Shown: positions 5,574 to 28,363 of the stretch, piece after piece
Layout of the letters: every line of letters begins with the position of its first letter
Position numbering within the stretch: the stretch's first letter is position 1
Origin: Actinomycetota bacterium
GTDB taxonomy: Bacteria > Actinomycetota > Actinomycetes > S36-B12
Direction of reading: 5' to 3'
Length of the DNA stretch: 35,067 nucleotides
Assembly (NCBI GenBank): GCA_017856385.1
Contig: JAFMFD010000015.1
Coordinates: forward strand, 1 to 35,067
Notes under the pieces: model-generated
Databases searched by the model: none
What the model was told of the DNA's origin: nothing
What the model saw: only the letters and a program-made list of their open reading frames with translations
Made by a program: the position numbers and the translations under genes

Positions 5574-5933
5574 TTGAACGTCTACACCCCGATCCTCGTG
5601 CTCGGCCTGCTGGCCTTCGGATTCGCCGCCTTCTCCGTCGTCGCTGCGACGTTCAGCGGACCCAAGCGATATAACCGCGCGAAGTACGACGCGTACGAGT
5701 GCGGTATCGAGCCGACGCCCCAGCCGATCGGCGGCGGTCGCTTCCCCGTCAAGTACTACCTGACCGCGATGCTGTTCATCGTCTTCGACATCGAGATCGT
5801 GTTCCTGTACCCGTGGGCGGTCGCGTTCGACCAGCTCGCGCTGTTCGGGCTCATCGAGATGTTCCTGTTCATCATCACCGTCCTCGTCGTCTACGTCTAC
5901 GTGTGGCGTCGGCGCGGACTCGAGTGGGAGTAG
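5574..5933 (+). CDS. nuoA: NADH-quinone oxidoreductase subunit A
   Basis: This 119-residue membrane subunit of complex I sits beside NuoH at the quinone-chamber entrance. Three hydrophobic helices are visible: the N-terminal [14 protein letters not shown], a central [14 protein letters not shown] with the conserved acidic residues, and a C-terminal segment before [11 protein letters not shown]. The loop [10 protein letters not shown] contains the Cys characteristic of the deactivation loop. The start is TTG at 5574, preceded by GAGGAGA at good spacing; [11 protein letters not shown] matches actinobacterial homologues. It is the first gene of the nuo operon. Confidence 0.97.
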
Positions 5934-5940
5934 GGGAGCC

Positions 5941-6495
5941 GTGGGCCTTGAGGAGGCACTGCCGTCGGGCGTCCTGCTGACGACGGTCGAGAAGTTCGCC
6001 GGGTACGCCCGCAAGGGATCCCTGTGGCCCGCGACCTTCGGACTGGCGTGCTGCGCGATCGAGATGATGGCAGCGGGTGGACCCCGCTTCGACATTGCGC
6101 GCTACGGCATGGAGGTCTTCCGCGCCTCGCCGCGCCAGGCGGACCTGATGATCGTCGCTGGCCGCGTGAGCCAGAAGATGGCGCCGGTGCTGCGCCAGAT
6201 CTACGACCAGATGCCGAATCCCAAGTGGGTCATCGCCATGGGCGTGTGTGCATCGAGCGGCGGCATGTTCAACAACTACGCGATCGTCCAGGGCGTCGAC
6301 CACGTCGTACCGGTCGACATCTACCTGCCCGGCTGCCCGCCCCGGCCGGAGATGCTCTTCGACGCGATCCTGAAGCTGCACGACAAGATCCAGGACACCA
6401 AGCTCGGCGTGAACCGCCGCGACGAGGTCATCGAGCTCGAGGCGGTTGCCCTCACCGCGCCGTCGACCCTGGAGTTGAAAGGCCTCATGCGATGA
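5941..6495 (+). CDS. nuoB: NADH-quinone oxidoreductase subunit B
   Basis: This 184-residue subunit holds cluster N2, the terminal [4Fe-4S] donor to menaquinone. Ligands are Cys37-Cys38 (FGLACCAIE), Cys103 (GVCASSGG) and Cys132 (PGCPPRPE). The loop [11 protein letters not shown], which lines the quinone tunnel, is intact. The GTG start follows a GGGGAG ribosome-binding site. The TGA overlaps the nuoC ATG as ATGA. A second, shortened NuoB-like protein is encoded at 27148-27579. Confidence 0.98.
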
Positions 6496-7196
6496 GCGAG
6501 CCCACCGCCTCGGTTGTGCCGCAGGGTGTCGAGCAGCTCGACATCATCGGTGTCCGCCACGGAGCATTCGGCGCGACGGGTGCGGGCGACACCAGCGGAT
6601 TCGGTGGCCTTGTCGAGCCGATCGTCCTGCCCGGTCCGGCACACCGGCCCTTCGGCGGCTGGTTCGACGAGGTGTCCGACGAGCTCGAGCTGGCGCTGAG
6701 GGCCCATGGCCTGCCGGCCGGCGAGGTGATCGAGAAGGTCGTCATCCACCGCGACGAGATCACGTACCACGTGGGCCGCGAGCACCTGGTCCCGTTCGCC
6801 ACGCTGCTGCGCGACGAGCCCGGGCTCCGGTTCGAGATGTGCCTCGGAGTCGACGGCGTGCACTACCCCGGCGAGGCGGGCCGTGAACTGCACGCGATCT
6901 ACCACTTCCTGTCGATCACCCACAACCGTCGGGTGCGGGTCGAGGTAGCGGTACCTGACGGCGATGCGGTCATCCCGTCCCTCGTCGCGGTCTATCCGAC
7001 CTGCGACTGGCACGAGCGCGAGACCTGGGACTTCTTCGGCATCGTGTTCGAGGGCCATCCCGCCCTCACGCGGATCATGATGCCCGACGACTGGCCTGGC
7101 CATCCGCAGCGCAAGGACTACCCGCTCGGCGGCATCCCCGTGGAGTTCAAGGGCGGCACCATTCCACCACCGGATCAGCGGAGGTCGTACCACTGA
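6492..7196 (+). CDS. nuoC: NADH-quinone oxidoreductase subunit C
   Basis: This 234-residue '30-kDa' subunit of the peripheral arm bridges NuoB and NuoD. The family signature [19 protein letters not shown] lies near residues 172-190, followed by the conserved basic end RKDYPLGG. The N-terminal 60 residues are variable, as is usual. The ATG at 6492 overlaps nuoB by ATGA. The frame extends open far upstream, but that part is antiparallel shadow within nuoB. Its stop overlaps the nuoD start by one base (TGATG). Confidence 0.97.
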
Positions 7197-8557
7197 TGTC
7201 GACCGACAACGTCACCTTCACCAGCGCCGATGCTCCCGAGGCCGACAGCTACGCCGGCTCGTACGAGACGACCGAGGGGCGCATCTACACCGTCTCAGGC
7301 GGTGACTGGGACTCGGTGCTGCCGGCGGCCGAGGGCGAGCACGACCGCATCGTCGTCAACATGGGCCCGCAGCATCCCTCCACGCACGGTGTCCTCCGGC
7401 TGATCCTCGAGATCGACGGCGAGACCGTCACGGAGGCCCGCGCCGGCATCGGCTACCTGCACACGGGCATCGAGAAGAACATGGAGTTCCGGTCGTGGGT
7501 CCAGGGCGTCACCTTCGTGACCCGCATGGACTACCTGACCCCGATGTTCAACGAGACGGCGTACTGCCTCGCCGTCGAGAAGGCGCTCGGCATCACGGAT
7601 CAGATCCCTGAGCGCGCGAACGTCATCCGCGTGATGATGATGGAGCTCAACCGGATCTCCTCCCACCTCGTGGCTCTTGCGACCGGCGGCATGGAGCTCG
7701 GCGCGCTGACGGCCATGGAGTTCGGCTTCCGCGAGCGCGAGCTGGTCCTCGACATCTTCGAGATGGTGACCGGCCTGCGCATGAACAGCGCCTACGTGCG
7801 TCCGGGCGGTGTCTCCCAGGACCTCCCCGCCGACGGTGCGCAGAAGATCCGCGAGACCATCCCCCTGCTGCGCAAGCGCCTCAAGGACACCGCGGACCTG
7901 CTCGTCGACAACTCCATCTGGATGGGTCGCACCGTCGGTGTGGGATACCTCGACCTCGCCGGCTGCATGGCCCTCGGCATCACCGGGCCGTGCCTGCGCT
8001 CGACCGGCCTCCCTCACGACCTGCGCAAGTCGCAGCCCTACTGCGGCTACGAGAACTACGAGTTCGACGTCATCACGAAGACCACCGCCGACGTCTACGG
8101 CCGCTTCCTCATCCGCATCGAGGAGATGGAGCAGTCGCTGCGCATCGTCGAGCAGGCGCTCGACCGGCTCGCACCGGGCCCGGTCATGGTCGAGGACAAG
8201 AAGATCGCGTGGCCCGCGCAGCTGTCGATCGGCAGCGACGGGCAGGGCAACTCCCTCGAGCACATCAAGGAGATCATGTCGGAGTCGATGGAGGCCCTGA
8301 TCCATCACTTCAAGCTGGTCACCGAGGGATTCCGCGTCCCGGCGGGCCAGGTCTACGCGGCTGTCGAGTCGCCCAAGGGCGAGCTCGGCTGCCACATCGT
8401 CAGCGATGGCGGCACGCGGCCCTACCGGGTGCACTTCCGCGACCCGTCCTTCACCAACCTGCAGTCGATGGCCGCGATGTGCGAGGGCAGCATGATCTCC
8501 GACGTGATCGCCGCGGTCGCGAGCATCGATCCCGTCATGGGCGGCGTGGACCGGTAG
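7196..8557 (+). CDS. nuoD: NADH-quinone oxidoreductase subunit D
   Basis: This 453-residue '49-kDa' subunit forms the quinone-binding pocket with Nuo[14 protein letters not shown] carries the His of the quinone site. [20 protein letters not shown] and [10 protein letters not shown] follow in family order, and the protein ends [10 protein letters not shown]. No NiFe cysteine ligands are present, so this is a true quinone-type subunit. The N-terminus has an extra, poorly conserved stretch of about 45 residues. It is the only NuoD in the window, which matters for the small NuoB/C/I set near 27.1-28.4 kb. Confidence 0.98.
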
Positions 8558-8570
8558 GGCGAGGAGCGAC

Positions 8571-9227
8571 ATGTCGATCAGCGAGACCACGCGCGCGCAG
8601 CTCGAGGAGCTTGTGGCCAGGTACCCCCGGCCCCGCTCGGCACTGATGCCGATGCTCCACCTCATGCAGAGCCTCGACGGCGAGGTGACCCCCGACGGCA
8701 TCGATGCCTGCGCAGAGCTGGCGGGCGTGAGCCCTGCCGAGGCGACGGCTGTCGCGTCCTTCTACACGATGTACCGGCGCTCACCCGGCGGCGCCCACCA
8801 CATCGGCGTGTGCATCAACACGCTCTGCGGCCTGCTGGGCGGCGACGCCGTGTACGAGGCGCTGAGCGAGCGGCTCGGCGTGGGCCACGACCAGACGACC
8901 CCGGACGGCCGGTTCACGCTCGAGCGGATCGAGTGCCAGGCCGCCTGCACGCACGCACCCGTGATGACCGTCGACTGGGAGTTCATGGACGACGTCACCC
9001 CCACGTCGGCCGTCGACGTGGTCGACCGGCTCGAGCGCGGCGAGACGGTCCGATCCACGCGCGGCCCCGTCATCCGCACCTGGCGCGACACGGAGCGCTC
9101 GCTGGCCTTCCCGGACGACGGCCTTGCCGCCGAGGGGACCCCGGTCGATGCCAAGATGCTCGCCGGGCTGAGCCTGGCCAAGGAGCGCGGCATGGCCGCA
9201 CCGACCACTGCACAGGAGGGCCGATGA
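8571..9227 (+). CDS. nuoE: NADH-quinone oxidoreductase subunit E
   Basis: This 218-residue thioredoxin-fold subunit of the NADH-oxidising module carries [2Fe-2S] cluster N1a. Ligands are Cys81 and Cys86 (CINTLC) and Cys122 and Cys126 (CQAAC). It is longer than the roughly 160-residue enterobacterial form because of a C-terminal tail, as in other actinobacteria. A GAGGAG ribosome-binding site precedes the ATG at 8571. The stop overlaps nuoF as ATGA. Confidence 0.97.
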   Translation: MSISETTRAQLEELVARYPRPRSALMPMLHLMQSLDGEVTPDGIDACAELAGVSPAEATAVASFYTMYRRSPGGAHHIGVCINTLCGLLGGDAVYEALSERLGVGHDQTTPDGRFTLERIECQAACTHAPVMTVDWEFMDDVTPTSAVDVVDRLERGETVRSTRGPVIRTWRDTERSLAFPDDGLAAEGTPVDAKMLAGLSLAKERGMAAPTTAQEGR

Positions 9228-10531
9228 CTCCGCTGACCCCGGTCATCACCGAGCACTGGGACGACCCCGAGCTGTTCACCCTTGCGGGCTACCGCCGGCA
9301 CGGCGGATACACCGCCCTCGCCTCGGCGCTGAAGCAGGATCCCGACGCGCTCATCGGCATGGTCAAGGACTCCGGCCTGCGCGGCCGGGGCGGCGCAGGG
9401 TTCCCCACCGGCCTGAAGTGGAGCTTCGTGCCGCAGAACGACGGCAAGCCCCACTACCTCGTCGTGAACGCCGACGAGTCCGAGCCGGGTGCCTGCAAGG
9501 ACATCCCGATCATGATCGCCAACCCCCACTCCCTCATCGAGGGGGTCATCATCACGTCGTACGCGATCCGCGCGAACCACGCGTTCATCTACATCCGCGG
9601 AGAGGTGCCGGAGGCCATCCGCCGGGTCGCCCTCGCCATCCGCGAGGCCCGCGAGGCTGGGCTGATCGGCCGCGACATCGCGGGCAGTGGCTTCGACCTC
9701 GACGTCGTCGTGCATGCCGGCGCCGGCGCTTACATCTGCGGCGAGGAGACGGCCCTACTGGACTCCCTCGAGGGGTTCCGCGGGCAGCCGCGACTGAAGC
9801 CGCCCTTCCCGGCGGTGGCGGGCCTGTACGCATCGCCCACCGTCATCAACAACGTCGAGACCATCTGCAACATCCCCTACATCGTCGGCCGCGGCGTCGA
9901 GTGGTTCCGGCAGTTCGGCACAGAGAAGTCGCCCGGCTTCAAGGTGTTCGCGGTGTCCGGCCACGTCAACCGGCCCGGGATCTACGAGGCTCCGCTCGGC
10001 ATCACGATGCGCGAGCTGCTCGACTACGCGGGCGGCATGCTCGACGGGCGCGATGTCAAGTTCTGGCTTCCGGGCGGCTCGTCCGTGCCGCTGCTGACGG
10101 CCGACCATCTCGATGTCCCGATGACGTATGAAGCCATGGCCGAAGCGGGGACGATGCTGGGGACGGGCACCCCCATGGTGTTCAACGACACCGTGAGCGT
10201 CGTGAAGGCGGTGACCCGCTGGCTGGAGTTCTACAAGCACGAGTCGTGCGGCAAGTGCACCCCGTGCCGCGAGGGCACGTACTTCATCACCGGCACGCTC
10301 GAGCGCTTCGAGCACGGCCACGGCAGCGAGCGTGAGATGGAGACGCTGGTCGACCTGTGCGACCAGATCGCGGGCCGTTCGTTCTGCGCCCTCGGGGATG
10401 CCGCCGCGACCCCGTACCCCTCGGCCCTGAAGTACTTCCGTGACGAGTTCGTCGCGGCCACCACGACGCCGGTCGACGAGCAGTTCGACCCGGCGAGCGC
10501 ATATGTGTTCTCGGGAGCGGCAGCGCGATGA
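9224..10531 (+). CDS. nuoF: NADH-quinone oxidoreductase subunit F
   Basis: This 435-residue subunit binds FMN and NADH and carries [4Fe-4S] cluster N3. [16 protein letters not shown] is the nucleotide-binding glycine loop, and [14 protein letters not shown] is the second FMN/NADH motif. The cluster ligands are Cys342, Cys345 and Cys348 (CGKCTPC) and Cys388 (FCALGD). The start at 9224 is fixed by the ATGA overlap with nuoE and by alignment; the open frame further upstream is shadow. The stop overlaps nuoG. Confidence 0.98.
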
Positions 10532-12912
10532 CCGTCACCAGCAACAGCGGGCCCGGATCCGACGTCGCGATGCCGACCGACCTGATCGCCGTCATCATCG
10601 ACGGCGTCGAGATGAGCGTGCCCAAGGGCACGCTGGTGATCCGGGCCGCGGAGCAGCTCGGCATCGAGATCCCACGCTTCTGCGACCACCCCCTGCTCGA
10701 CCCTGTTGCTGCCTGCCGCGCCTGCCTCATCGAGGTCGAGGGCATGCCCAAGCCGCAGCCCGCCTGCGCACAGGTGCTCACCGACGGCATGAACGTCCGC
10801 ACGCAGTACGCATCCGAGGTCGCGCGCGCGGCCCAGGAGGGCGTCATGGAGTTCCTGCTGCTGAACCACCCGCTCGACTGCCCGGTGTGCGACAAGGGCG
10901 GTGAGTGCCCGCTGCAGAACCAGGCGATGACGGTGGGCCGCGCCGAGTCGCGCTTCGACGGCGAGAAGCGAGAGTTCGAGAAGCCGGTCAACGTCAGTGC
11001 ACAGGTCCTCCTCGACCGCGAGCGCTGCGTGTCCTGCGCGCGCTGCACGCGATTCGCAGAGCAGATCGCCGGCGATCCGTCGCTCGAACTGCTGCAGCGG
11101 GGCGCCAAGCAGATCGTCGGCACCGCTGATGACACGCCCTTCGAGTCGTACTTCTCCGGAAACGTCGTGCAGATCTGCCCGGTGGGTGCGCTGACCAGCG
11201 CGTCGTACCGGTTCCGCTCGCGGCCCTTCGACCTCGTCTCAGTGCCCACGACCTGCGAGCACTGCGCGTCCGGCTGCTCGCTGCGCACCGACTACCGCCG
11301 TGGTGTCGTCACGCGGCGACTCGCATGGGACGACCCGCAGGTCAACGAGGACTGGAACTGCGACAAGGGCCGCTTCGCGTTCGCCTACCAGGTGCACGGG
11401 CGCCTGGAGAGCCCGATGATCCGCGAGAACGGCGAGCTGCGCGTCGCATCCTGGCCCGAGGCCATCGATGCCGCCGCACGCGGGCTCGCTGCTGCGCGCG
11501 GCCGGGTGGGCGTGCTCGTCGGCGGTCGCAGCACCGTCGAGGACGCCTACGCGTATGCCCGCATCGCCCGCACCGCCCTGGCCACCGACGACATCGACTT
11601 CCGGGTGCGCCAGACCTCCGTGGAGGAGGACGCCTTCCTTGCCGCCGTGGTCGCCGGCACTCCTGTGTCGGTGACCTACGAGGCGCTGGAGTCGGCGCCT
11701 GTCGTGCTGCTCGTCTGCCTCGAGCCGGAGGACGAGTCGCCGATCCTGCAGCTGCGCCTGCGCAAGGCCGCGCGGAACGGAACCCCTGTCGTCTCGATCG
11801 GTGCGGTGCGCTCGCCCGGGCTCGGCAAGGTGCGCGGACGCCTGCTGCCTGCCAGGCCCGGGGGCGAGGGCGCGGTGCTGGCGGCCCTGCCCGACGACGT
11901 GCGGGCACTGCTGGCCCAGCCCGGTGCGGTCGTCCTTGTCGGCGAGCGGGCTGCCGGCTCGGCCGGGGCACTGTCCGCAGCAGCCGCCCTGGCGCGAAGC
12001 ACGGGTGCCGGGCTGGCGTGGGTGCCACGTCGCGCCGGTGAGCGCGGTGCACTCGATGCTGGAGCCCTCGCGGGCCTGCTTCCGGGTGGCCGACCGCTGT
12101 CGGACGCGTCGGCTCGCGCCGACGTCGCCCGCGCGTGGGGCATCGCGCCGACGGACCTGCCGGCACAGCGCGGACGGTCCGGCGACTCCCTGCTCGCCGC
12201 GGCCCGCGACGGCCAGCTCGGGGCGCTGCTCGTCGGCGGCGTGGAGCTTTCGGACTACGCCGATCCCCGTGGAGCGCAGGAGGCGATTGACGCCGTCGGG
12301 TTCGTCGTGTCGCTGGAGAACCACCACTCGGCCGTCACCGAGCGGGCCGACGTGATCCTGCCGGTCGCGGCGGTGACCGAGAAGGCGGGCACCTTCCTGG
12401 ACTGGGAGGGCCGGCCGCGTCCGTTCGAGCAGGTCTTGCGCGATGCCCTCACGATGTCGGACGCGCGGGTGCTGGCGATGATCGCCGACGCGATGGACGT
12501 GCGCATGCCGGCCGACGTGCGCGCCATCCGCGCGGAGATGGGGTCCCTCGGCCCGTGGACAGGTGCGCGCGGCGAGGCCCCGAGCGTGGCCCCCGCGGCG
12601 TCGACCGACGCCACCGTCCTCGCCTCGTGGCGCCAGTTGCTGGACTCCGGCCTCATGCAGGACGGTGAGCCGCACCTCGCGGCGACGGCACGCCCGACCG
12701 TTGCCCTCGTCTCGGCCGCGACGGCTGCGGGAGTCGGGGAGAGCGTGACGGTCACCGGGCCTGGTGGATCGATCACGCTGCCCGTCGAGGTCGGCGACGT
12801 GGTCGACGGCGTCGTGTGGGTGCCGATGAACTCCCCGGGCTGCCACATCCACGCTGATCTCGGCGCGGTGCCCGGGTCGGGCGTACGGCTCTCCCCAGGA
12901 GGCACGGCATGA
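10528..12912 (+). CDS. nuoG: NADH-quinone oxidoreductase subunit G
   Basis: This 794-residue subunit forms the Fe-S chain between the flavin and NuoI. Visible ligand sets are [2Fe-2S] Cys52/63/66/80; N5 His114/Cys118/121/127; N4 Cys167/170/173/217; and an additional set Cys243/246/250/278 matching off-pathway cluster N7, which many lineages have lost. The rest is a degenerate molybdopterin-oxidoreductase-like domain without molybdenum ligands. It overlaps nuoF and nuoH by ATGA at both ends. Confidence 0.97.
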
Positions 12913-14267
12913 GCGACTCCCAGTTCGGGCTCTTCGGCGTCGATCCGTGGTGGCTGGTCCTGCTGAAGGTCCTCGCCATCTTCGTCATGCTCGTGCTGCT
13001 GACCCTGTTCACCATCTGGTGGGAGCGTCGTGTCGTCTCCCGCATGCAGAACCGCATCGGGCCCAACCGGGTCGGCCCGCAGGGCCTCCTGCAGTCCCTG
13101 ATGGACGGCATCAAGCTGGCCCTGAAGGAGGAGATCATCCCCAAGTCGGCCCACGTGGCCGTCTACTGGCTCGCCCCGGTCATCTCGGCGACCATGGCGT
13201 TCCTCGCCTTCGCCGTGATCCCGTTCGGTCCGGAGGTCTCGATCTTCGGCGTCATGACGCCGCTGCAGCTCACCGACTTCCCGGTCTCGGTGCTGTACGT
13301 CCTTGCGATCGCCTCCATCGGCATCTACGGCATCGTGCTGGGCGGCTGGGCCTCGGGCTCGACCTATCCGCTCCTCGGCGGCCTCCGGTCGAGCGCCCAG
13401 ATGATCTCGTATGAGATCGCCATGGGGCTGTCGTTCGTCGCGGTGTTCCTCTACGCCGGGTCGATGTCGACGTCCGAGATCGTCATCGCACAGGAGCCCA
13501 TCTGGTTCGCAGTGATCCTGCTGCCGTCGTTCCTCATCTACTGCACGGCCATGGTCGGTGAGACCAACCGCGCCCCCTTCGACCTCCCCGAGGCCGAGGG
13601 CGAACTCGTGGGCGGTTTCCACACCGAGTACTCGTCGCTGAAGTTCGCGCTGTTCTTCCTGGCCGAGTACATCAACATGGTCACGGTCTCCGCAATGGCG
13701 GTCACCTTGTTCCTCGGCGGGTATCTCGCCCCCTGGCCCCTCTCGCTGTGGGCCGACGCCAACTCCGGCTGGTGGCCGATGCTCTGGTGGCTGCTCAAGG
13801 TGCAGATCTTCATCTTCATCTTCATCTGGCTGCGCGGCACCCTTCCGCGGATGCGCTACGACCAGTTCATGCGGTTCGGCTGGAAGGTGCTCATCCCGGT
13901 CTCCATCGGCTGGATCATGGTCGTCTCCGTAGCGCGTCTGCTGCGCGAGGACGTGTCCTTCTCCACCACGGAGATCCTCATCGCAGGAGCGGTCCTCATC
14001 GTCCTGCTGCTGCTCGCCTCGTGGATCGTGCAGTCGCGCCAGGACCGTCGCCAGCGAGCCCAGGACGAGGCCGACGAGGCGGCGGCTGCCGCCCCGTTCG
14101 ATCCGCTGGAGAGCGGGTTCCCGGTGCCGCCGATGCCCGGCCAGTCCTTCAGCTACACGTCCCGCCGGGCCGCTGCGGCAGGGACCACCGTCGTCCAGGA
14201 GCAGCCCGTGATCACAGCATCCGACACGTCGGGCATCGACGACCCGGAGGAGGATCGGAATGGCTGA
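12909..14267 (+). CDS. nuoH: NADH-quinone oxidoreductase subunit H
   Basis: This 452-residue membrane subunit connects the quinone cavity to the proton-pumping subunits. [19 protein letters not shown] and [20 protein letters not shown] are the diagnostic loops. About eight to nine hydrophobic helices are visible. After the last helix there is a charged, Ala/Pro-rich cytoplasmic tail of about 75-80 residues that enterobacterial NuoH lacks; actinobacterial homologues often have one. The stop overlaps nuoI by 8 bp. Confidence 0.97.
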
Positions 14268-14814
14268 GCTGCCCCAGGTGGTGCGCGGGTTCGGCGTCAC
14301 CTTCCTGACGATGTTCAAGAAGGTCGTCACCGAGCAGTACCCCGAGCAGAAGGTCCCTCCCGCTCCCCGATTCCACGGACGCCACCAGCTCAACCGCTGG
14401 GCCGACGGCCTCGAGAAGTGCGTCGGCTGCGAGCTGTGCGCTTGGGCCTGCCCGGCCGACGCCATCCTCGTCGAGGGCGCGGACAACACCGACGAGGAGC
14501 GGTTCTCGCCGGGGGAGCGCTACGGCCGGGTCTACCAGATCAACTACCTGCGCTGCATCCTGTGCGGACTGTGCATCGAGGCGTGCCCGACCCGTGCGCT
14601 GACGATGACGAACGAGTACGAGCTCGCCGATGACTCGCGCGCCAAGCTGATCTACGAGAAGGAGGACCTCCTGGCCCCGCTCCTTCCCGGCATGGTGGCC
14701 CCGCCGCACGAGATGTACCCCGGCACGACGGAGCGCGACTACTACGCGAACAAGGTCACGGGCGCCTCGCCCGAGCAGGTGACCACCCGGGTGGCACAGG
14801 AGGAGTCGGCGTGA
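14260..14814 (+). CDS. nuoI: NADH-quinone oxidoreductase subunit I
   Basis: This 184-residue ferredoxin-like subunit carries clusters N6a and N6b, which pass electrons from NuoG to NuoB. The two ligand sets are Cys54/57/60/64 ([12 protein letters not shown]) and Cys99/102/105/109 ([12 protein letters not shown]). The N-terminal amphipathic helix expected to lie on NuoH is present. The C-terminus is longer than the minimal core. It overlaps nuoJ as GTGA. A smaller NuoI-like protein is encoded at 28043-28363. Confidence 0.98.
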
Positions 14815-15629
14815 TCATCCCCCTGGCCGAGACGGCCACCGAGACCAATGTCGGGGAGCAGGCGGTGTTCTGGGTCTGCGCCACGCTTGCAGTGGCGGGC
14901 GCGCTCGGCATGATCCTCTCCCGCAAGGCGGTGCACAGCGCCCTGTGGATCGCGCTGACCATGATCAACCTCGCGATCCTCTACGTCGCGAACTCGGCAC
15001 CCTTCCTCGGGATGGTGCAGATCATCGTCTACACCGGCGCGGTGATGATGCTGTTCCTGTTCGTCCTGATGGTTGTGGGCGTCGACGCATCGGACTCCCT
15101 GATCGAGACCATCAAGGGCCAGCGCATCGCCTCCATCCTGCTGGCGGTGGGGTTCGCGATCCTGCTGGTCTGGGGAGTCGGCAGTGCGCTGACAGAGGTC
15201 TCACCAGTGGGCGTCACCGCAGCCAACGACGAGTACGGCGGCAACGTCCAGGGCATCGCCCACGTGATCTTCATCCAGTACCTCATTGTCTTCGAGCTCA
15301 CGTCGGCGCTCCTCATCACGGCCGCCATGGGCGCGATGGTCCTCGCACACCGGGACCGCTGGAAGGCGCTGCTCAGCCAGCGTGAGCTCTCGATCGAGCG
15401 CTTCCGCAGCGGTGGCCACCCGGGCAACCTGCCCACACCGGGCGTGTTCGCCCGGCACAACGCGGTCGACACCCCTGCGCTGCTGCCGGACGGCGGGATC
15501 AGCGAGCTGAGCGTCCCGGCGCCGGTCCGAGTGCGTGGCGACGAGCGGCCACTCGACCGGGTCGACATCGACGAGGTTCGCCAGATCAGCGAGGGCGAGA
15601 CCGACCTGCCGGAGGGGAGGCAGTCATGA
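14811..15629 (+). CDS. nuoJ: NADH-quinone oxidoreductase subunit J
   Basis: This 272-residue membrane subunit next to NuoK and NuoA has five hydrophobic helices in the first 190 residues. [26 protein letters not shown]-like sequence marks the third helix, which holds the pi-bulge region in known structures. The last 80 or so residues are hydrophilic and form an actinobacterial-type cytoplasmic tail. The GTG start overlaps nuoI, and the stop overlaps nuoK as ATGA. Confidence 0.95.
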
Positions 15630-15925
15630 ACCCGGCCAATTACGTGCTCCTCTCGGCGGTGCTCTTCAGCATCGGGGCCGTCGGCGTCCTGGTGCGACGC
15701 AATGCGATCGTCGTGTTCATGAGCGTCGAGCTGATGCTCAATGCTGCGAATCTGGCGTTCGTGGCCTTCGCCCGCATGAACGGCAACCTCGACGGGCAGA
15801 CGGTCGCCTTCTTCGTGATGGTCGTCGCCGCGGCGGAGGTGGTGGTCGGCCTGGCCATCATCGTGACCATCTTCCGCACCCGCCGCTCGGCGTCCATCGA
15901 CGAACCGAACCTGCTCAAGTACTGA
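15626..15925 (+). CDS. nuoK: NADH-quinone oxidoreductase subunit K
   Basis: This 99-residue subunit has three transmembrane helices and is related to Mrp[19 protein letters not shown] contains the conserved membrane Glu used in proton transfer, and a second Glu lies in [10 protein letters not shown]. Length and order are standard. Its ATG overlaps nuoJ. It is followed by a 33-bp gap, the largest in the latter half of the operon. Confidence 0.97.
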
Positions 15926-15958
15926 CATCCCCCACCCCCGACGATCGATAGGACTGCC

Positions 15959-17854
15959 GTGACCGAGTTGATGCCCGCTGAGGGGGTGTTCTCCCTCATC
16001 TGGCTGCTCATCGCCCTGCCCCTGGCCGGGGCCGTGATCCTGCTGTGCGCCGGGCGCCGTACCAACTCATGGGGCCCGTACCTCGGCGTCCTGACGGTCA
16101 GCGCCTCCGCTGTGCTCGGCTGGGTGATGCTCTGGGAGATGCTGCAGGTCTCCCCGGAGCAGCGCACGGTGGAGCAGAACCTCTACTCGTGGCTCGTCGT
16201 CGGGGACTTCCAGGCGGACATGGCCTTCCAGCTCGACCAGCTGTCGATGGTGTTCGTGCTGCTCATCACGACCGTGGGTGCGCTCATCCACGTGTACTCG
16301 ATCGGATACATGTCCCACGATCGGGACCGTCGCAAGTTCTTCGGCTACCTCAACCTCTTCGTCGCCGCGATGCTCATCCTGGTGCTGGCAAACAACTACC
16401 TCCTGCTCTACGTCGGCTGGGAGGGCGTCGGCCTCGCCAGCTACCTGCTGATCGGCTTCTGGCAGTACAAGCCATCGGCTGCGGCGGCCGCGAAGAAGGC
16501 GTTCGTCATCAACCGGGTGGGCGACGTGGGCCTGAGCCTGGCGATCATGCTGATGTTCGTCACCTTCGGAACGGTCAGCTTCGAGGGGGTATTCGGTTCC
16601 GCCGATGAGGCCAGCCAGGGCACCCTCAACGCGATCGGCCTTCTGCTCCTGCTGGCGGCAGCGGGCAAGTCCGCACAGTTCCCTCTCCAGGCCTGGCTGC
16701 TCGACGCGATGGAGGGCCCGACCCCGGTCTCCGCCCTGATCCATGCGGCCACCATGGTCACCGCAGGCGTCTACCTGATCACCCGCAGCAACGCGATCTT
16801 CGACATCGCGGAGCTCGCGGCGACCGCGGTCATCGTCGTCGGCGTGATCACTGTGTTCATGGGCGCGATCATCGGCTCAGCCAAGGACGACATCAAGAAG
16901 TCGCTCGCCGGATCGACCATGAGCCAGATCGGCTACATGGTCGCGGCGGTGGGCCTCGGACCGATCGGGTACGTCTTCGGCATCTTCCACCTCCTGACCC
17001 ACGGCGTGTTCAAGGCCGGCCTGTTCCTCGGTGCCGGCTCGGTAATGCATGGCATGAACGACAACGTGAACATGCGCCGCTACGGCGCGCTGCGCACCGT
17101 CATGTTCATCACCTTCATCACGTTCGCCGCGGGCTGGCTGTCAATCCTCGGAATCCCGCCCTTCTCGGGCTTCTGGTCCAAGGACGAGATCATCCACGCG
17201 GCGTTCGAGCAGGGCGTGGTCGTGGGAGTCCTGCTGGTCATCGCCGCGGGCATCACGGGCTTCTACATGACGCGCATGTTCATCATGACCTTCCTGGGCA
17301 AGGCTCGATGGGAGGAGGGCGTGCATCCCCACGAGTCGCCCAAGGTCATGACGATCCCGCTCATCATCCTCGCCCTCGGCTCGACCTTCCTCGGCATGGC
17401 CCTGCTCTTCTGGGGCGACATCGAGTCGTGGCTCGAGCCGGTGGTCGGCTTCGAGTCGAAGCCTGCGGCTCTGTCGACTGCAGCCACGATCGCCATCTCC
17501 CTGACGGTCGTGATCATGGGCGCGATCGTCGCCTACGTCATGTACTGGCGGCGCCCGGTCCCGATCGAGGAGCCCCGCGGCTCGTGGCTCACGCGCGCGG
17601 CCCGCGAGGAGCTCTACGGCAACCAGGTGAACGACGCACTCGTCGTCAAGCCCACCTACGTCGCAGCCCGGGCCACCGCGGTGCTTGACGCCAAGGTCGT
17701 CGACGGGGTGGTGAACGGATCGGCCGCCTTCGTCGGCGCCCTGTCCACCCGGCTCCGCCGGTACCAGACCGGCTTCGTCCGCTCGTACGCACTGTCGATG
17801 GTGGGAGGCGCCGTTCTCGTCGTCCTCGCCCTGGTCCTGGTGAGGGCATCGTGA
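15959..17854 (+). CDS. nuoL: NADH-quinone oxidoreductase subunit L
   Basis: This 631-residue antiporter-like proton-pumping subunit lies at the far end of the membrane arm. [18 protein letters not shown] contains the key Glu, and [19 protein letters not shown] the key Lys. [10 protein letters not shown] carries the later conserved Lys. The C-terminus includes the long lateral-helix region. The start is GTG at 15959, with only a weak AGGA upstream. The stop overlaps nuoM as GTGA. Confidence 0.97.
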
Positions 17855-19404
17855 ACTACCCGTGGCTGACGACCCTGATGGTCGTGCCCCTGGTCGGGAG
17901 CATCGTCGTCGCGCTGCTGCCGCGTGCCCGAGGCGTGCTCGCCAAGCAGGTCGCGCTCCTGTTCTCCCTCGTCACCCTCGGCTTGACGATCGCGGTGGCG
18001 CTGCAGTTCTCCGCGACCTCCGCCGAGCGCTTCCAGTTCGTCGAGTCCCATCCGTGGATCCCGGCCTTCGGCATCTCCTACTCGGTCGGCATCGACGGCA
18101 TCAGCCTCGTGCTCATCGCCCTGGCGGCCACCCTGGTCCCGATCGTGATCCTGGCGGGATGGAACGAGGCAGACACCGCGGCGGGCGGGTCGGTCAAGGG
18201 CTACTTCGCGCTGATCCTCGTCCTCGAGGCCCTCATGATCGGGGTCTTCGCAGCCACCGACGTGTTCCTCTTCTATGTCTTCTTCGAGGTCATGCTGGTT
18301 CCGACCTACTTCATGATCGGGCGCTTCGGTGGGCCGCAGCGGTCCTACGCCGCGGTCAAGTTCCTGATCTACAGCCTTGTCGGCGGCCTGCTGATGCTGG
18401 CCGCCCTGATCGGCCTGTACGTGGTGTCCGCCCAGGTGACCGGGACCGGGACCTTTGACTTCGGCGCACTTGTCGGCATCGAGATCGACCCCGATCTGCA
18501 GAAGCTGCTGTTCCTCGGTTTCTTCATCGCCTTCGCCATCAAGGCGCCGCTGTGGCCATTCCACACGTGGCTGCCGGACGCCGCCGCCGAGGCCAGGCCC
18601 GGCACGTCGGTGCTCCTTATCGGCGTGCTCGACAAGGTGGGCACATTCGGGATGATCCGGTACTGCCTGGAGATCTTCCCCGCGGCATCGGAGTTCTACG
18701 CACCGATCGTGATCGCCCTCGCCGTGATCGGCATCTTCTACGGGGCCCTGCTCGCGCTGCGGCAGCACGACATGAAGCGACTGTTCGCGTACTCGTCGAT
18801 GTCCCACTTCGGGTTCATCACGCTCGGCATCTTCGTGTTCACCTCGCAGGGGCAGTCCGGCTCGGTCGTCTACATGGTCGCCCACGGCCTGTCCACGGCT
18901 GCGCTGTTCCTCACCGCCGGGTTCCTGATCGCGCGCAGGCACGGCTCGAGCCTGATCTCGGACTACTCGGGTGTGAACTCCGTGGCCCCTGTGCTGGCCG
19001 GGTTCTTCCTGGTCGCAGCGCTGTCGTCACTGGCGCTGCCGGGCATGCTGTCGTTCGTCGGCGAGTTCCTCGTTCTGCTGGGCGCCTTCGAGCGGTACCT
19101 GTGGGTCGGTGCCGTGGCCACGATCGGCATCGTCATCACGGCCGCGTACGTCCTGCGGCTCTACCAGAAGACCATGACCGGCCCGCTCAAGCCCGGGCTC
19201 GAGGGCATCGGCGACCTGAAGGGCCGTGAGGTGACCGCACTGGTGCCCGTGGCGGTGCTGAGCATCGTCCTCGGCTTCTTCCCGGCCCCGCTCACCGACG
19301 TGATCAACCCGGCGGTGGACCAGGTGATGACCTCGATCGGTGCCACCGATCCCGAGCCGGAGATCCGATCAGCCGGCGCGACGACGGAAGGGGGCTCGTC
19401 GTGA
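17851..19404 (+). CDS. nuoM: NADH-quinone oxidoreductase subunit M
   Basis: This 517-residue antiporter-like proton-pumping subunit has about 14 helices. [18 protein letters not shown] carries the conserved Glu. [18 protein letters not shown] starts with the conserved Lys, and [14 protein letters not shown] follows with the second Lys. It ends with a short hydrophilic tail. The GTG start overlaps nuoL, and the stop overlaps nuoN as GTGA. Confidence 0.97.
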
Positions 19405-20936
19405 CCGAGTTCACTCCTCCGGAGATCAACTACTACGCGATCGCCCCCATCCTGATCATGTTCGGGGCGGCCATCGTCTCCGTCCTCGTCGAGGCCTTCG
19501 TTCCGCGGCGCGGGCGCCGCCCGACCCAGCTCGTGCTGGTCATCGGCTCGATCGTCGCCGCCCTCGCCGTGACGATCGACCTGCGCGGCACACGCCTGGT
19601 CACCGGCGCCGGCGCTGTGGCGGTCGATGGACCCACCCTGCTGCTGTGGGCCGCGCTGCTGGTCATCTCGCTGCTCGGCGCCCTGCTCATGGCCGAGCGG
19701 ACCATCGACCCGGTCGGTGACTCCTTCGCGCCCCGGGCCTCGGCCCTCCCCGGGTCCGACGACGAGCAGCAGTTCGCGCGTCGGGGCTATCTGCAGACCG
19801 AGGTCTGGCCTTTCCTGCTCTTCGCGATCACCGGCATGCTCGTGTTCGTCGCCGCCAATGACCTGCTGATCATGTTCGTGGCCCTTGAGGTCATGTCCCT
19901 GCCGCTGTACCTGCTGGCCGGCATGGCGCGACGTCGTCGCCTGCTCTCGCAGGAGGCGGCCCTGAAGTACTTCATCCTCGGCGCCTTCTCCTCGGCCTTC
20001 TTCCTGTACGGCGCCGCCCTGCTCTACGGCTACAGCGGTTCCGTGGGATTCGTGGCCATCTCCGACGCGCTGACGGCCAAGCCCAGCGAGGGCACGCTCG
20101 TGGCGCTCGGCGTGGCGCTGGTGATCGTGGGCCTGCTGTTCAAGGTCTCCGCCGTACCGTTCCACCAGTGGACGCCCGACGTGTACCAGGGAGCCCCGAC
20201 CTCAGTCACCGCACTGATGGCCGCAACGGTCAAGATCGCCGCGTTCGGCGCCCTTCTCCGCGTCCTGTATGTCGCGGTCGGCGGTCTGCGCTGGGACTGG
20301 ACGCCGATGCTGTGGATCATCGCGGCGCTGACGATGCTCGTGGGATCCATCGTCGCGATCTCCCAGACGGACGTGAAGCGCATGCTGGCGTACTCGTCGG
20401 TGGCGCAGGCGGGCTTCATCCTCATCGGCGTGATCGCCGCGACCCCCGAGGGCCTTGCCAGCTCGCTTTTCTACCTGATCGCCTACGGCTTCACGACCAT
20501 CGGCACGTTCGCCGTCGTCTCCCTGGTGCGCAACGCCTCGGGTGAGGCGACCTCGATGGCGGCGTGGGCGGGCCTGGGCCGCAAGTCGCCTCTCACCGCG
20601 GCCGTGTTCTCGCTCTTCCTGCTGTCGCTGGCCGGCATCCCCCTCACCAGCGGATTCGTCGGGAAGTTCGCCGTCTTCACCGCGGCCATCGCCAGCGGCG
20701 GAACGTGGCTGGTCATCATCGGCGTGGTCGCCAGCATCATCGCGGCCTTCTTCTACGTGCGCCTGATCGTCCTCATGTACTTCGCCAAGCCCACCGAGGA
20801 CACCGCCTCCGTGGCGATCCCCTCGGCCTTCACCACCATCGCGCTGACGACTGCTGCGGTCCTGACCATCGCCCTGGGCGTGTTCCCCCAGTGGCTGCTG
20901 GACGTGCTCGAGCAGGCGGGCGTGTTCATCCGGTAG
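19401..20936 (+). CDS. nuoN: NADH-quinone oxidoreductase subunit N
   Basis: This 511-residue antiporter-like subunit completes the nuo set. FVALEVMSLPLYLLAGMAR carries the conserved Glu, and KVSAVPFHQWTPDVYQGAP the conserved Lys and family motif. DVKRMLAYSSVAQAGF is the late conserved helix-loop. The stop TAG at 20934-20936 abuts the probable promoter of the next gene, so the operon's protein-coding part ends here, although read-through is possible. Confidence 0.97.
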   Translation: MTEFTPPEINYYAIAPILIMFGAAIVSVLVEAFVPRRGRRPTQLVLVIGSIVAALAVTIDLRGTRLVTGAGAVAVDGPTLLLWAALLVISLLGALLMAERTIDPVGDSFAPRASALPGSDDEQQFARRGYLQTEVWPFLLFAITGMLVFVAANDLLIMFVALEVMSLPLYLLAGMARRRRLLSQEAALKYFILGAFSSAFFLYGAALLYGYSGSVGFVAISDALTAKPSEGTLVALGVALVIVGLLFKVSAVPFHQWTPDVYQGAPTSVTALMAATVKIAAFGALLRVLYVAVGGLRWDWTPMLWIIAALTMLVGSIVAISQTDVKRMLAYSSVAQAGFILIGVIAATPEGLASSLFYLIAYGFTTIGTFAVVSLVRNASGEATSMAAWAGLGRKSPLTAAVFSLFLLSLAGIPLTSGFVGKFAVFTAAIASGGTWLVIIGVVASIIAAFFYVRLIVLMYFAKPTEDTASVAIPSAFTTIALTTAAVLTIALGVFPQWLLDVLEQAGVFIR

Positions 20937-20948: not shown

Positions 20949-21944
20949 GTGAGCGATGCCCTGACGGGACTCCCCCTGCCCGATGCCGGGCTGGAGGCGA
21001 TCCTCGCCGGGCAGCTCGCCCTCGTCGAGTCCGGCCTGCGCGAGGCCGTCGCAAGCGACGACCCCTTCGTGGCCGATGCCTCCCGCTACCTTGTCGACGC
21101 GGGTGGGAAGCGGTTCCGGCCGCTGCTCGTCCTCGTGGCCGCCCAGTTCGGCGACGCGGACGCGCCGGGCGTGGTCCCGGCGGGTGTCGTCGTCGAGCTC
21201 ACGCACCTTGCGACGCTCTACCACGACGACGTGATGGACGAGGCCCAGCTGCGCCGGGGTGCTCCGTCGGCGAACGCGCGCTGGGACAACACGATCGCGA
21301 TCCTCACCGGCGACTTCCTCTTCGCCCGCTCGTCGAAGATCCTGGCCGACCTCGGGCCGGAGGCCGTGCGCATCCAGGCCCTCACCTTCGAGCGGCTGTG
21401 CCGCGGCCAGATCCGCGAGACTGTGGGGCCCCGTGACGGGCAGGACCCGGTGCAGCATCACCTTGAGGTCGTGGCCGACAAGACGGGCTCCCTGATCGCC
21501 GCGTCTGGCTGGTACGGCGGGCTCATGGCCGGTGCGCCTGCAGAGTACGTCGAGCTGCTGACCGCCTTCGGCGAGCGGATCGGCGTGGCGTTCCAGCTCG
21601 CCGACGACCTCGTCGACATCACCTCGGAGTCGCTGCAGTCCGGCAAGACGCCGGGCACGGACCTGCGCGAGGGCATCCTCACCCTGACCGGCCTCATCGC
21701 GCTCGCGAGCGACGATCCGCAGGACGCCCGGCTGAAGGACCTCCTGGGCCGACCGCTGCCCGATGATGATGAGCATGCCGAGGCACTGGCCCTCCTTCGC
21801 GCCCATCCCGGGGTCATCGAGGCCCGCAAGGAGGCGCACGGCTGGGCCGATGCCGCTCGGGACCTGCTGGCCGGGCTTCCGGCCGGACCAGCCAGGGACG
21901 TGCTGGCCCAGCTCTGCGACTACGTGGTCTCGCGTACGGGTTGA
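20949..21944 (+). CDS. Long-chain trans-polyprenyl diphosphate synthase
   Basis: This is a 331-residue E-type prenyl synthase that adds isopentenyl diphosphate units to an allylic primer. The first aspartate motif is DDVMD at 93-97 and the second DDLVD at 219-223. GGKRFRPLL is the substrate-binding block. The residues four and five positions before the first motif are small (Thr89, Ala88), which is the pattern of long-chain products rather than farnesyl diphosphate. Placed 12 bp after the nuo operon and near men genes, it most likely makes the menaquinone side chain (heptaprenyl to nonaprenyl). The exact chain length is not readable. Confidence 0.92.
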   Translation: MSDALTGLPLPDAGLEAILAGQLALVESGLREAVASDDPFVADASRYLVDAGGKRFRPLLVLVAAQFGDADAPGVVPAGVVVELTHLATLYHDDVMDEAQLRRGAPSANARWDNTIAILTGDFLFARSSKILADLGPEAVRIQALTFERLCRGQIRETVGPRDGQDPVQHHLEVVADKTGSLIAASGWYGGLMAGAPAEYVELLTAFGERIGVAFQLADDLVDITSESLQSGKTPGTDLREGILTLTGLIALASDDPQDARLKDLLGRPLPDDDEHAEALALLRAHPGVIEARKEAHGWADAARDLLAGLPAGPARDVLAQLCDYVVSRTG

Positions 21945-27026: not shown

Positions 27027-27135
27027 TGTCTTCCCTCGGTCGTTGGAGAGGTGCCGGAGACGTCCTCGTGAACAATGTGTGGACGTCCTACGAGCCTACA
27101 CCGCGAGCATGGGCTCCGCCCTCGGCTCCGCTCAC

Positions 27136-27141
27136 TAGCCT
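27136..27141 (+). promoter_or_regulatory. Candidate -10 element for the small NuoB/C/I-like operon
   Basis: TAGCCT is followed by GAGGGC and then the GTG start at 27148. The GAGGG lies too close to the start to act as a normal Shine-Dalgarno, so a leaderless transcript is favoured. It lies in the 121-bp region shared with korA; TAGGCT on the other strand (27093-27098) could serve korA, but with weaker support. Confidence 0.45.
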
Positions 27142-27147
27142 GAGGGC

Positions 27148-27579
27148 GTGCTCGCCCCCTTCCGCGCCAGGTCCGCACTGCGCCTCGCCGCGGATCCGGG
27201 GCTCGGCATCGACGTCATCGCGCTCGGGCTGGCGTGCTGCGCGGTCGAGGTCGATGCCGCGGTCGCGGCCGGACTGCTCAGGCCCGAGGAGGCAGGCGAC
27301 GACCCGGCACGGGTGCGGATCCTCGTGGTGGCCGGGACGGTGACCACGCCGCTTGCTCCGGTGCTGGAGGCGGCCGTCCACCAGGGGCCGGTCCCCGATG
27401 CGGTACTCGCCTTCGGGGCGTGCGCGAGTACCGGCGGCCCGTACTGGGACTCGCCGACCGTCGTGAACGGGGCCGACCTGGTCGTGGCGGTCGACGAGTA
27501 CGTGCCGGGCTGCCCGCCCCGCCCCGAGGCCCTCTGCCGGGCCGTGGCCGAGCTGGCCTCGAGGGTGGCGGCGCCATGA
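27148..27579 (+). CDS. Small NuoB-like Fe-S protein (orphan second copy)
   Basis: This 143-residue protein has the NuoB / group 4 hydrogenase small-subunit fold signature. Cys30-Cys31 (LGLACCAVE), Cys92 (GACASTGG) and Cys122 (PGCPPRPE) match all four N2-cluster ligands. Compared with the operon NuoB it is about 40 residues shorter and lacks the loop with PRFDIARYG that lines the quinone tunnel. The binding core is otherwise conserved, so it looks functional rather than decayed. It overlaps the next gene as ATGA. It may form an electron-transfer unit with the next two products; the terminal acceptor is unknown. Confidence 0.85.
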   Translation: MLAPFRARSALRLAADPGLGIDVIALGLACCAVEVDAAVAAGLLRPEEAGDDPARVRILVVAGTVTTPLAPVLEAAVHQGPVPDAVLAFGACASTGGPYWDSPTVVNGADLVVAVDEYVPGCPPRPEALCRAVAELASRVAAP

Positions 27580-28046
27580 GCCCGATCGACGTCGTCGACG
27601 TGCCCGATCCGGGTCAGTGGACCTCGACGCTGGCCGGGTCGGCGGACGATGCGTGCGAACTGCTCACCGCGATTGACCACGGAGCCGAGCTCGAGATCCT
27701 GGTCGTGCTGCGCGGCCGGGAGGGCCTGCGGATGCTGCGCACGCGGGTTCCGGCCAAAGATCCGTGCCTCGACTCGGCCGTCGCGGTGCTGCCCGCCGTT
27801 GCCTGGCACGAGCGCGAGGTGGCGGAGATGTTCGGCGTGACGTTCGCAGGGCATCCGGACCCGCGCCCGCTGCTCCTCCGTGAGCACGTCGAGGCACCTC
27901 CCCTGCGCCGCAGCACGCCGCTGCCGGAGCGCATCGCCCGACCGTGGCCCGGGGCACGGGATGCGGGGGCACGACGACGCCCCACCCCGCCCCCGGGCGT
28001 GCGGAACTCATGGCAGGGTCGCGACGTGGACGAGGGCGCACCATGA
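27576..28046 (+). CDS. Small NuoC-like protein
   Basis: This 156-residue protein resembles the C-terminal core of NuoC and the equivalent domain of group 4 hydrogenases. AWHEREVAEMFGVTFAGHPDPRPLLL is a clear version of the family signature (compare [18 protein letters not shown] in the operon NuoC). The end of the family core is reduced, and a Pro/Arg-rich tail of about 45 residues follows. The ATG overlaps the small NuoB-like gene by ATGA, and the stop overlaps the next gene in the same way. No NuoD domain is fused. The function is inferred only from its partners. Confidence 0.8.
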   Translation: MSPIDVVDVPDPGQWTSTLAGSADDACELLTAIDHGAELEILVVLRGREGLRMLRTRVPAKDPCLDSAVAVLPAVAWHEREVAEMFGVTFAGHPDPRPLLLREHVEAPPLRRSTPLPERIARPWPGARDAGARRRPTPPPGVRNSWQGRDVDEGAP

Positions 28047-28363
28047 CGACGTCGCCGCGACGCGGGGTCCTCCGGCTGATCCCGAGTGCCTGCACCTCCT
28101 GCATGATCTGCGCGCAGGAGTGCCCGGCGTGGTGCATCACCATCGATGCGCACACCGAGCAGGTGAGCGAACCCGGCGCGCGGCGTCCGCGGTCGGTCAG
28201 CGTCCTGGACGCCTTCTCGATCGACTTCGGGCTGTGCATGTACTGCGGGATCTGCGTCGACGTGTGCCCCTTCGACGCACTGGAGTGGTCACCGGAGGAT
28301 GACCACGCTGCCGAGCGGCGGGACGCGCTCGTGCACGACGTCGATCGGCTCGCCGCCCACTGA
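28043..28363 (+). CDS. Small NuoI-like 2x[4Fe-4S] ferredoxin protein
   Basis: This 106-residue protein has two complete CxxCxxCxxxCP sets: Cys17/20/23/27 (CTSCMICAQECP) and Cys65/68/71/75 (CMYCGICVDVCP). The 38-residue spacing and DFGLCMYCGICVDVCPFDAL resemble NuoI and hydrogenase HycF/EchF more than free clostridial ferredoxins. The N-terminal membrane-lying helix of NuoI is missing, so the protein may be soluble. It is the last of three genes joined by ATGA overlaps. It could accept electrons from KorAB (or a ferredoxin) and pass them to the NuoB-like protein; that is inference. Confidence 0.85.
   Translation: MTTSPRRGVLRLIPSACTSCMICAQECPAWCITIDAHTEQVSEPGARRPRSVSVLDAFSIDFGLCMYCGICVDVCPFDALEWSPEDDHAAERRDALVHDVDRLAAH

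Follow-up and report, generated by a model that had tools for sequence, protein, structure and literature searches.

A short operon of complex I-like genes, lying back to back with the genes of a 2-oxoacid:ferredoxin oxidoreductase (korAB), raises the question of whether the two belong to a single electron route, and of where such a route would lead. The first-pass annotation of this locus had seen a promoter region controlling both sides and a chain running from 2-oxoglutarate through KorAB, a NuoI-like and a NuoB-like protein into respiration, bypassing NADH. The analysis reported here suggests another answer, in which the operon belongs to what is left of a second complex I and works as a free-standing Fe-S enzyme, and not as an entry to the respiratory chain. 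The feature is real, and it is more interesting than first described, as the retained hydrophilic half of that second complex. The window, which is the whole stretch of 35,067 nucleotides analysed, corresponds to the entire contig C112 of an actinobacterial genome of 2.6 Mb (G000); the closest relatives with a name are MAGs assigned to Actinomycetes and Candidatus Nanopelagicales.

Gene order and promoters of the divergent locus

As had been noticed, korAB and the small Nuo-like operon diverge across 121 bp (Table 1). The identity of korA and korB is backed by Pfam and NCBIfam models (POR, POR_N and TPP_C domains), and the pair has the features of the KorAB type, a fused gamma-alpha subunit together with a TPP/Fe-S beta subunit; its assignment as a 2-oxoglutarate enzyme is putative, the name being taken only from its likeness to actinobacterial KOR. 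The same fused gamma-alpha plus beta enzyme is found in M. tuberculosis (KorAB, Rv2455c/Rv2454c), in an operon with Rv2452c-Rv2453c whose description reports no adjoining nuo-like genes (PMC2773412). On the opposite side, three genes span positions 27148-28363 (+), and both of their junctions are ATGA overlaps. An 8Fe ferredoxin-like and a NuoB-like protein had been correctly recognised among their products. The order, however, is B, C, I, with the NuoB-like gene next to the promoter; the NuoC-like gene had gone unnamed, and the operon is incomplete, an unlinked NuoD paralog belonging with the trio.

Table 1. Position, strand and supporting evidence of the features described in the window
Feature	Position	Strand	Evidence
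nuoA-N, the genome's canonical operon of 14 genes	5574..20936	+	holds the genome's only NuoH and its only three NuoL/M/N homologs
korB, 2-oxoacid:ferredoxin oxidoreductase beta subunit, 347 aa	24110..25153	-	PF02775; PorB_KorB 244 bits
korA, fused gamma/alpha subunit, 621 aa	25161..27026	-	TIGR03710 (OAFO_sf) 665 bits, cut-off 483; PF01855, PF01558, PF17147
Divergent intergenic region, 121 bp	27027..27147	.	sequence; similar gaps in relatives
Palindrome GGACGTCC (TAGGACGTCCTA in several genus relatives)	27081..27088	.	could be an operator, close to where korA transcription starts
Candidate korA -10 box TAGGCT, adjoining the palindrome	27093..27098	-	consensus inference from intergenic sequences of genus relatives
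nuoB2 -10 box TAGCCT, 6 bp before GTG	27136..27141	+	comparison with relatives
nuoB2, NuoB-like, 143 aa, GTG start	27148..27579	+	PF01058 65.6 bits; alignments; predicted fold
nuoC2, NuoC-like, 156 aa, motif WHEREVAEMFG..GHPD	27576..28046	+	PF00329 76.7 bits; alignment
nuoI2, NuoI-like 2[4Fe-4S], 106 aa	28043..28363	+	Fer4_7 45.9 bits; NuoI 63 bits; N-terminus comparison

Scans for sigma-70 promoters and for terminators gave no matches, and the -10 boxes were obtained from the comparison of relatives. Of 26 distinct upstream regions, 19 have a TANNNT box whose distance to the nuoB2 start is 6-8 bp, when mononucleotide shuffling yields 2.2 such regions on average and 7 at most in 2000 shuffles; this distance from the start codon predicts a leaderless nuoB2 transcript. 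On the korA side there is a palindrome that occurs only once in the window and is present in 7 of the distinct korA-nuoB2 gaps, almost all of them from this genus; in the genus relatives the palindrome, in the form TAGGACGTCCTA or close to it, is followed by TAGNCT read towards korA. The boxes of the two directions are about 40 bp apart, which makes two separate promoters placed back to back. The joint control proposed for both operons is not supported, given the separate boxes and a palindrome that is almost limited to one genus and lies on the korA side.

The divergent arrangement of korA and nuoB2 was found in about 25 related loci from several families, with gaps mostly of 64-187 bp (253-357 bp in three relatives). 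A second NuoB, distinct from the canonical one, occurs in 51 of the 59 genomes of the window's family, counting matches stronger than about 1e-23, since canonical NuoB scores about 1e-22. The family keeps the order nuoN, GGPPS, (MFS), EamA, korB, korA, trio and yajQ, and the syntenic block, from nuoA-N via korBA, the trio and yajQ to murB, reaches other families of the order and class. Because yajQ, maoC and murB, which have no known link to korAB or the trio, are kept in the same block, the adjacency of korAB and the trio is by itself weak evidence of a functional link. Taken to its end, this argument would have both operons adjoin only through an inherited block (nuo-GGPPS-EamA-korBA-trio-yajQ-murB), sharing neither function nor control, which would agree with the loss of either korAB or the trio alone in some genomes, and with promoter elements that differ between the two directions. 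We hold this possible, if doubtful, given that korAB also lies near nuo2 in genomes with an otherwise reshuffled block, such as a Streptomyces-like locus in which a two-component system sits between korAB and nuo2. It is compatible with the soluble enzyme proposed below for the trio itself, and the divergence of nuoB2 and korA is in any case mostly an inherited gene order with separate promoters.

Further upstream in the window, a MenD-like gene, recognised by eye, lies at 584-2332 before nuoA-N, and a polyprenyl diphosphate synthase follows nuoN at 20949-21944, so the canonical complex I operon seems to have menaquinone genes on either side.

The nuo2 module and its membrane arm

A search for NuoD in the same genome revealed a diverged second copy on another contig (C146:6109-7230). 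This nuoD2 is kept across the family, alone between DUF2520-panC-nadB-nadC and folate genes/ftsH, which rules out membrane subunits hidden beside it. NCBIfam ranks its product as NuoD (215 bits), with hydrogenase models at 24 bits or less; a hydrogenase core was dropped as a candidate, as every model calls D2 NuoD. About 45 residues of canonical NuoD are absent from every nuoD2 (for instance L039 6109-7230), including those of membrane-bearing genomes. No promoter element common to nuoD2 and nuoB2 was found, the TANNNT box being present in none of 22 nuoD2 upstream regions. In the family, a box CAGGAT, CAAGAT or CACACT precedes the nuoD2 start by about 6 bp (e.g., L039 before 6109), and the transcript looks leaderless too, judging by this different box.

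Among 297 genomes of the class, the initial counts gave D2 in 116 and B2 in 117. Five of the doubtful genomes were checked by locus inspection, which exposed three false B2 calls (the borderline hits of G203, G098 and G116 are canonical NuoB) and corrected two missed ones (G105 and G311, where B2 is present). After these checks both genes occur in 111 genomes, a single one in 5 and 5, and neither in 176. Hence B2 and D2 coincide in 111 of the 121 genomes having either, a match whose p-value is meaningless as a probability because the genomes are related, but which still spans many families.

By synteny and alignment, the trio and nuoD2 make up the hydrophilic half of nuo2, the second complex I of actinobacteria; in the window's family its membrane subunits have been lost. 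Near korAB, a larger set (A2, B2, C2, H2, I2 and J2-N2, with nuoD2 elsewhere) is present in the Streptomyces-like G076 and in G267, G304 and G231, and the same larger set occurs in G295 without korAB. A position near korAB, as observed in G076, is common to the Streptomyces cluster and the module described here. We take SCO4594/4595 to be the korAB genes of Streptomyces. Streptomyces nuo2 itself (SCO4599-SCO4608 plus an unlinked nuoD2; PMC3765725, PMC9239103) has the same orthologous B2, C2, I2 and D2, with D2 again unlinked and no NuoEFG; its genes are contiguous except for nuoD2 (PMC3765725), and its function is given as unclear (PMC9239103). The genome under study likewise carries orthologous NuoB2, C2 and I2 without NuoE, F or G, and an unlinked nuoD2. 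The two differ in that the Streptomyces version has A2, H2, J2-N2, the YP..P...RG region of I2 and the quinone-cavity segment of B2, whereas the version in the window has none of them. The NuoC2 described here was found by similarity and is not recognised in the published description of nuo2. The NuoC2 of G076 (L140 9857-11311) has a tail that is long, of low complexity and repetitive, with units such as TPQAADEPSAAP; the published description calls nuo2 NuoC-free.

No A2, H2 or J2-N2 subunits of a second complex were found in G000, which encodes one NuoH and three NuoL/M/N proteins, all canonical. A nuo2-type NuoH is present in 16 of 58 tested genomes, and in none from the window's family, nor in the closed or near-closed genomes G216, G104 and G150. 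Among the genomes that have B2 and D2 but lack it are G216, a single contig of 7.4 Mb, and G088, a single contig of 3.1 Mb; in the latter only a NuoH fragment is left, between C2 and I2. Most genomes are fragmented MAGs, so the main absences rest on a few closed genomes, and these rule out assembly gaps as the reason for the missing membrane arm. A quick tree of D2, with some long branches, places at least three changes between forms with and without the arm on its starred branches (G216 with G074, G088, and a large group that holds the window), which indicates that the arm was lost repeatedly, at least three times. In one member of the window's family, G041 (20 contigs, about 90% complete), no homolog of NuoB, NuoD, nuo2 or KorA was found; the whole of complex I has possibly been lost there.

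Clusters, membrane contacts and quinone site

The sites for the Fe-S clusters are intact in both proteins of the trio that carry them. Alignments give two [4Fe-4S] motifs in I2 and all four N2-type cysteines in B2, with invariant ligands, and I2 is the most conserved member of the trio. Between close pairs, dN/dS is 0.08-0.17 for B2, C2, I2 and D2, and 0.02-0.04 for korA (the B2 value of the pair G020/G028 was left out, one sequence being incomplete). The four genes are under purifying selection, and their decay without function is ruled out by these values.

Canonical NuoI has an N-terminus of the form RGFxVTF...VTEQYPE...PRxxG; the corresponding anchor region of I2 (TxxYP..xP...RG) is present in all five membrane-bearing genomes read, and is missing in the membrane-less ones except two in which the arm was lost recently: G088, where it is intact, and G216, where part of it persists. 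The I2 of the window is without the membrane-associating N-terminus of NuoI. In complex I structures, the part of NuoB that runs from the tandem cysteines to the PRQAD motif (helix 2 to strand 1) lines the quinone cavity and contacts NuoH and NuoA. In B2 this segment behaves like the I2 anchor and is shortened in membrane-less genomes, and AlphaFold2 predicts for B2 a NuoB fold without the segment (pLDDT 82), the best PDB match of which is NuoB of complex I (E 1e-7).

For D2, the sequence of Thermus Nqo4 with its residue numbering (His38, Tyr87 and Asp401) served as a provisional ruler. The canonical RMDY reads RHDW in every D2 read (RFDW in G068 and RHEW in G193), membrane-bearing genomes included, which changes the tyrosine to tryptophan; this change is independent of the ruler, since RMDY is also what the canonical NuoD encoded in the window shows at that alignment position. 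At the position of Asp401 there is Phe or Pro, also in membrane-bearing forms. His38 is kept in the D2 of this genome and in membrane-bearing D2, and is replaced by N, V, Q, T or P in several membrane-less ones. The quinone-site pair of His38 and Tyr87 is thus not complete in the genome's own D2, where the histidine is kept and the tyrosine is Trp. Most membrane-less D2 retain the HP..H loop, which extends into the quinone cavity. With no second membrane arm in the genome or the family, and with the parts that contact the membrane and the quinone cavity lost or changed, the route into respiration that had been proposed for the locus is not borne out.

The reading towards which we lean is that nuoB2-C2-I2 and nuoD2 represent the hydrophilic module of nuo2 after loss of its membrane arm, and that their products form a soluble B2-C2-D2-I2 Fe-S oxidoreductase. 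A low-potential donor (a ferredoxin, or, in genomes that have it, KorAB, whether directly or indirectly) would reduce the two [4Fe-4S] clusters of I2, from which electrons would move on to the N2-like cluster in B2. They would exit to a soluble acceptor where B2 and D2 enclose what used to be the quinone cavity. We infer the assembly of the four subunits, the direction of the electrons and the solubility of the acceptor. The co-occurrence of B2 and D2, the repeated loss of the arm along with the I2 anchor and the B2 segment, the dN/dS values and the kept ligands all point to such a complex. The unlinked position of nuoD2 argues against it, and so does the kept HP..H loop, since such a loop would agree with use of a quinone or of the membrane arm of canonical complex I.

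That loop bears on the strongest form of the respiratory route, where B2-C2-D2-I2 would dock on the canonical membrane arm in place of NuoBCDI and NuoEFG, as a ferredoxin-fed, proton-pumping menaquinone reductase. The membrane-less genomes examined do keep canonical nuoA-N, and a hybrid of nuo and nuo2 products has been proposed for Streptomyces (PMC9239103). However, the I2 anchor and the B2 segment vanish together with the membrane subunits, the quinone-binding tyrosine and Asp401 are replaced in D2 even where a membrane arm exists, and His38 is substituted in several forms without it; we consider this docking unlikely.

Electron donors and possible function

The soluble B2-C2-D2-I2 enzyme would still need a donor, and the original proposal had named one. 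The literature leaves the post vacant from the other end, since the physiological electron acceptor of actinobacterial (M. tuberculosis) KOR is unknown (PMC2773412). The gene is also commoner in genomes with D2 (korA in 102 of 116) than in those without (127 of 181), and in several families korAB adjoins the trio, in conserved divergent placement, or its full-length ancestor nuo2, which makes a low-potential donor plausible. A stricter version would have KorAB as the specific donor to NuoI2, with both operons co-regulated from the region between them. The co-occurrence is not strict, however. A domain search found POR_N in none of 12 genomes that keep B2 and D2 (G021, G029, G037, G052, G001, G014, G024, G011, G183, G193, G295 and G184), ten of which belong to lineages without the membrane arm. 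The loci of G021, G011, G001, G193 and G183 were read and hold an intact trio, beside which, in G011, lie fragments of korAB. Conversely, 127 genomes have korA without D2, and in G112 and G094 korAB is located elsewhere. The persistence of the trio and D2 without POR_N in 12 genomes means that KorAB cannot be the obligatory donor, and it may be at most one optional donor where present. Of the chain from KorAB through the NuoI-like to the NuoB-like protein, the intact cluster ligands and the nearby korAB of several families stand, and the dependence on KorAB falls with those 12 genomes. Taking in the separate promoter boxes as well, we consider the specific, co-regulated version unlikely.

To the idea that these proteins build or tune canonical complex I, passing no electrons to a new acceptor, we give very little credence: canonical complex I is present in membrane-less genomes and the proteins evolve faster than korA, but none of their cluster ligands has been replaced, I2 varies least among the trio, and the nuo2-bearing G184 has only a nuo2-type NuoH.

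The proposed soluble oxidoreductase can be set beside two families of known enzymes. The 11-subunit ferredoxin-type complex I-like enzymes (for instance Desulfitobacterium, cyanobacterial NDH-1) likewise have no NADH module, and the four N2 ligands of their NuoB and the pair of [4Fe-4S] motifs of their NuoI are present here too; their electrons are thought to come from ferredoxin or from an oxoacid:ferredoxin oxidoreductase (PMC11238625). They differ in having a full membrane arm; the present D2 has Trp at the position of the quinone tyrosine. The group 4 membrane-bound [NiFe] hydrogenases (Ech, Hyc and Mbh) have the same B/C/D/I hydrophilic core by descent, but D2 scores as NuoD, and the genome studied here encodes neither another NuoH nor additional antiporter subunits.

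Since the membrane arm was lost repeatedly and the hydrophilic module was kept, the module must do something without a proton pump of its own. More tentatively, and with somewhat less than even confidence, we propose that the hydrophilic half of complex I turned several times into a free-standing cytosolic enzyme in actinobacteria, where electrons from ferredoxin would reduce a soluble substrate in the open cavity of B2 and D2. Both the function of Streptomyces nuo2 (PMC9239103) and the acceptor of actinobacterial KOR (PMC2773412) are open in the literature; the membrane-less module offers a small soluble target for the former question, and a natural experiment on the separation of complex I into its modules.

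Two further observations concern other genomes of the set. In G184 (L211, C1:265001-285000), a full nuo2 cluster supplies the only NuoH, of nuo2 type, with no korAB or other POR_N protein, and nuo2 may be the sole complex I of that organism. In a few relatives, separate clusters with distant NuoD, NuoC, NuoB and NuoH plus antiporter homologs, resembling group 4 hydrogenases or formate hydrogenlyase, are present at L212, L213 and G050:C62:161320-168064.
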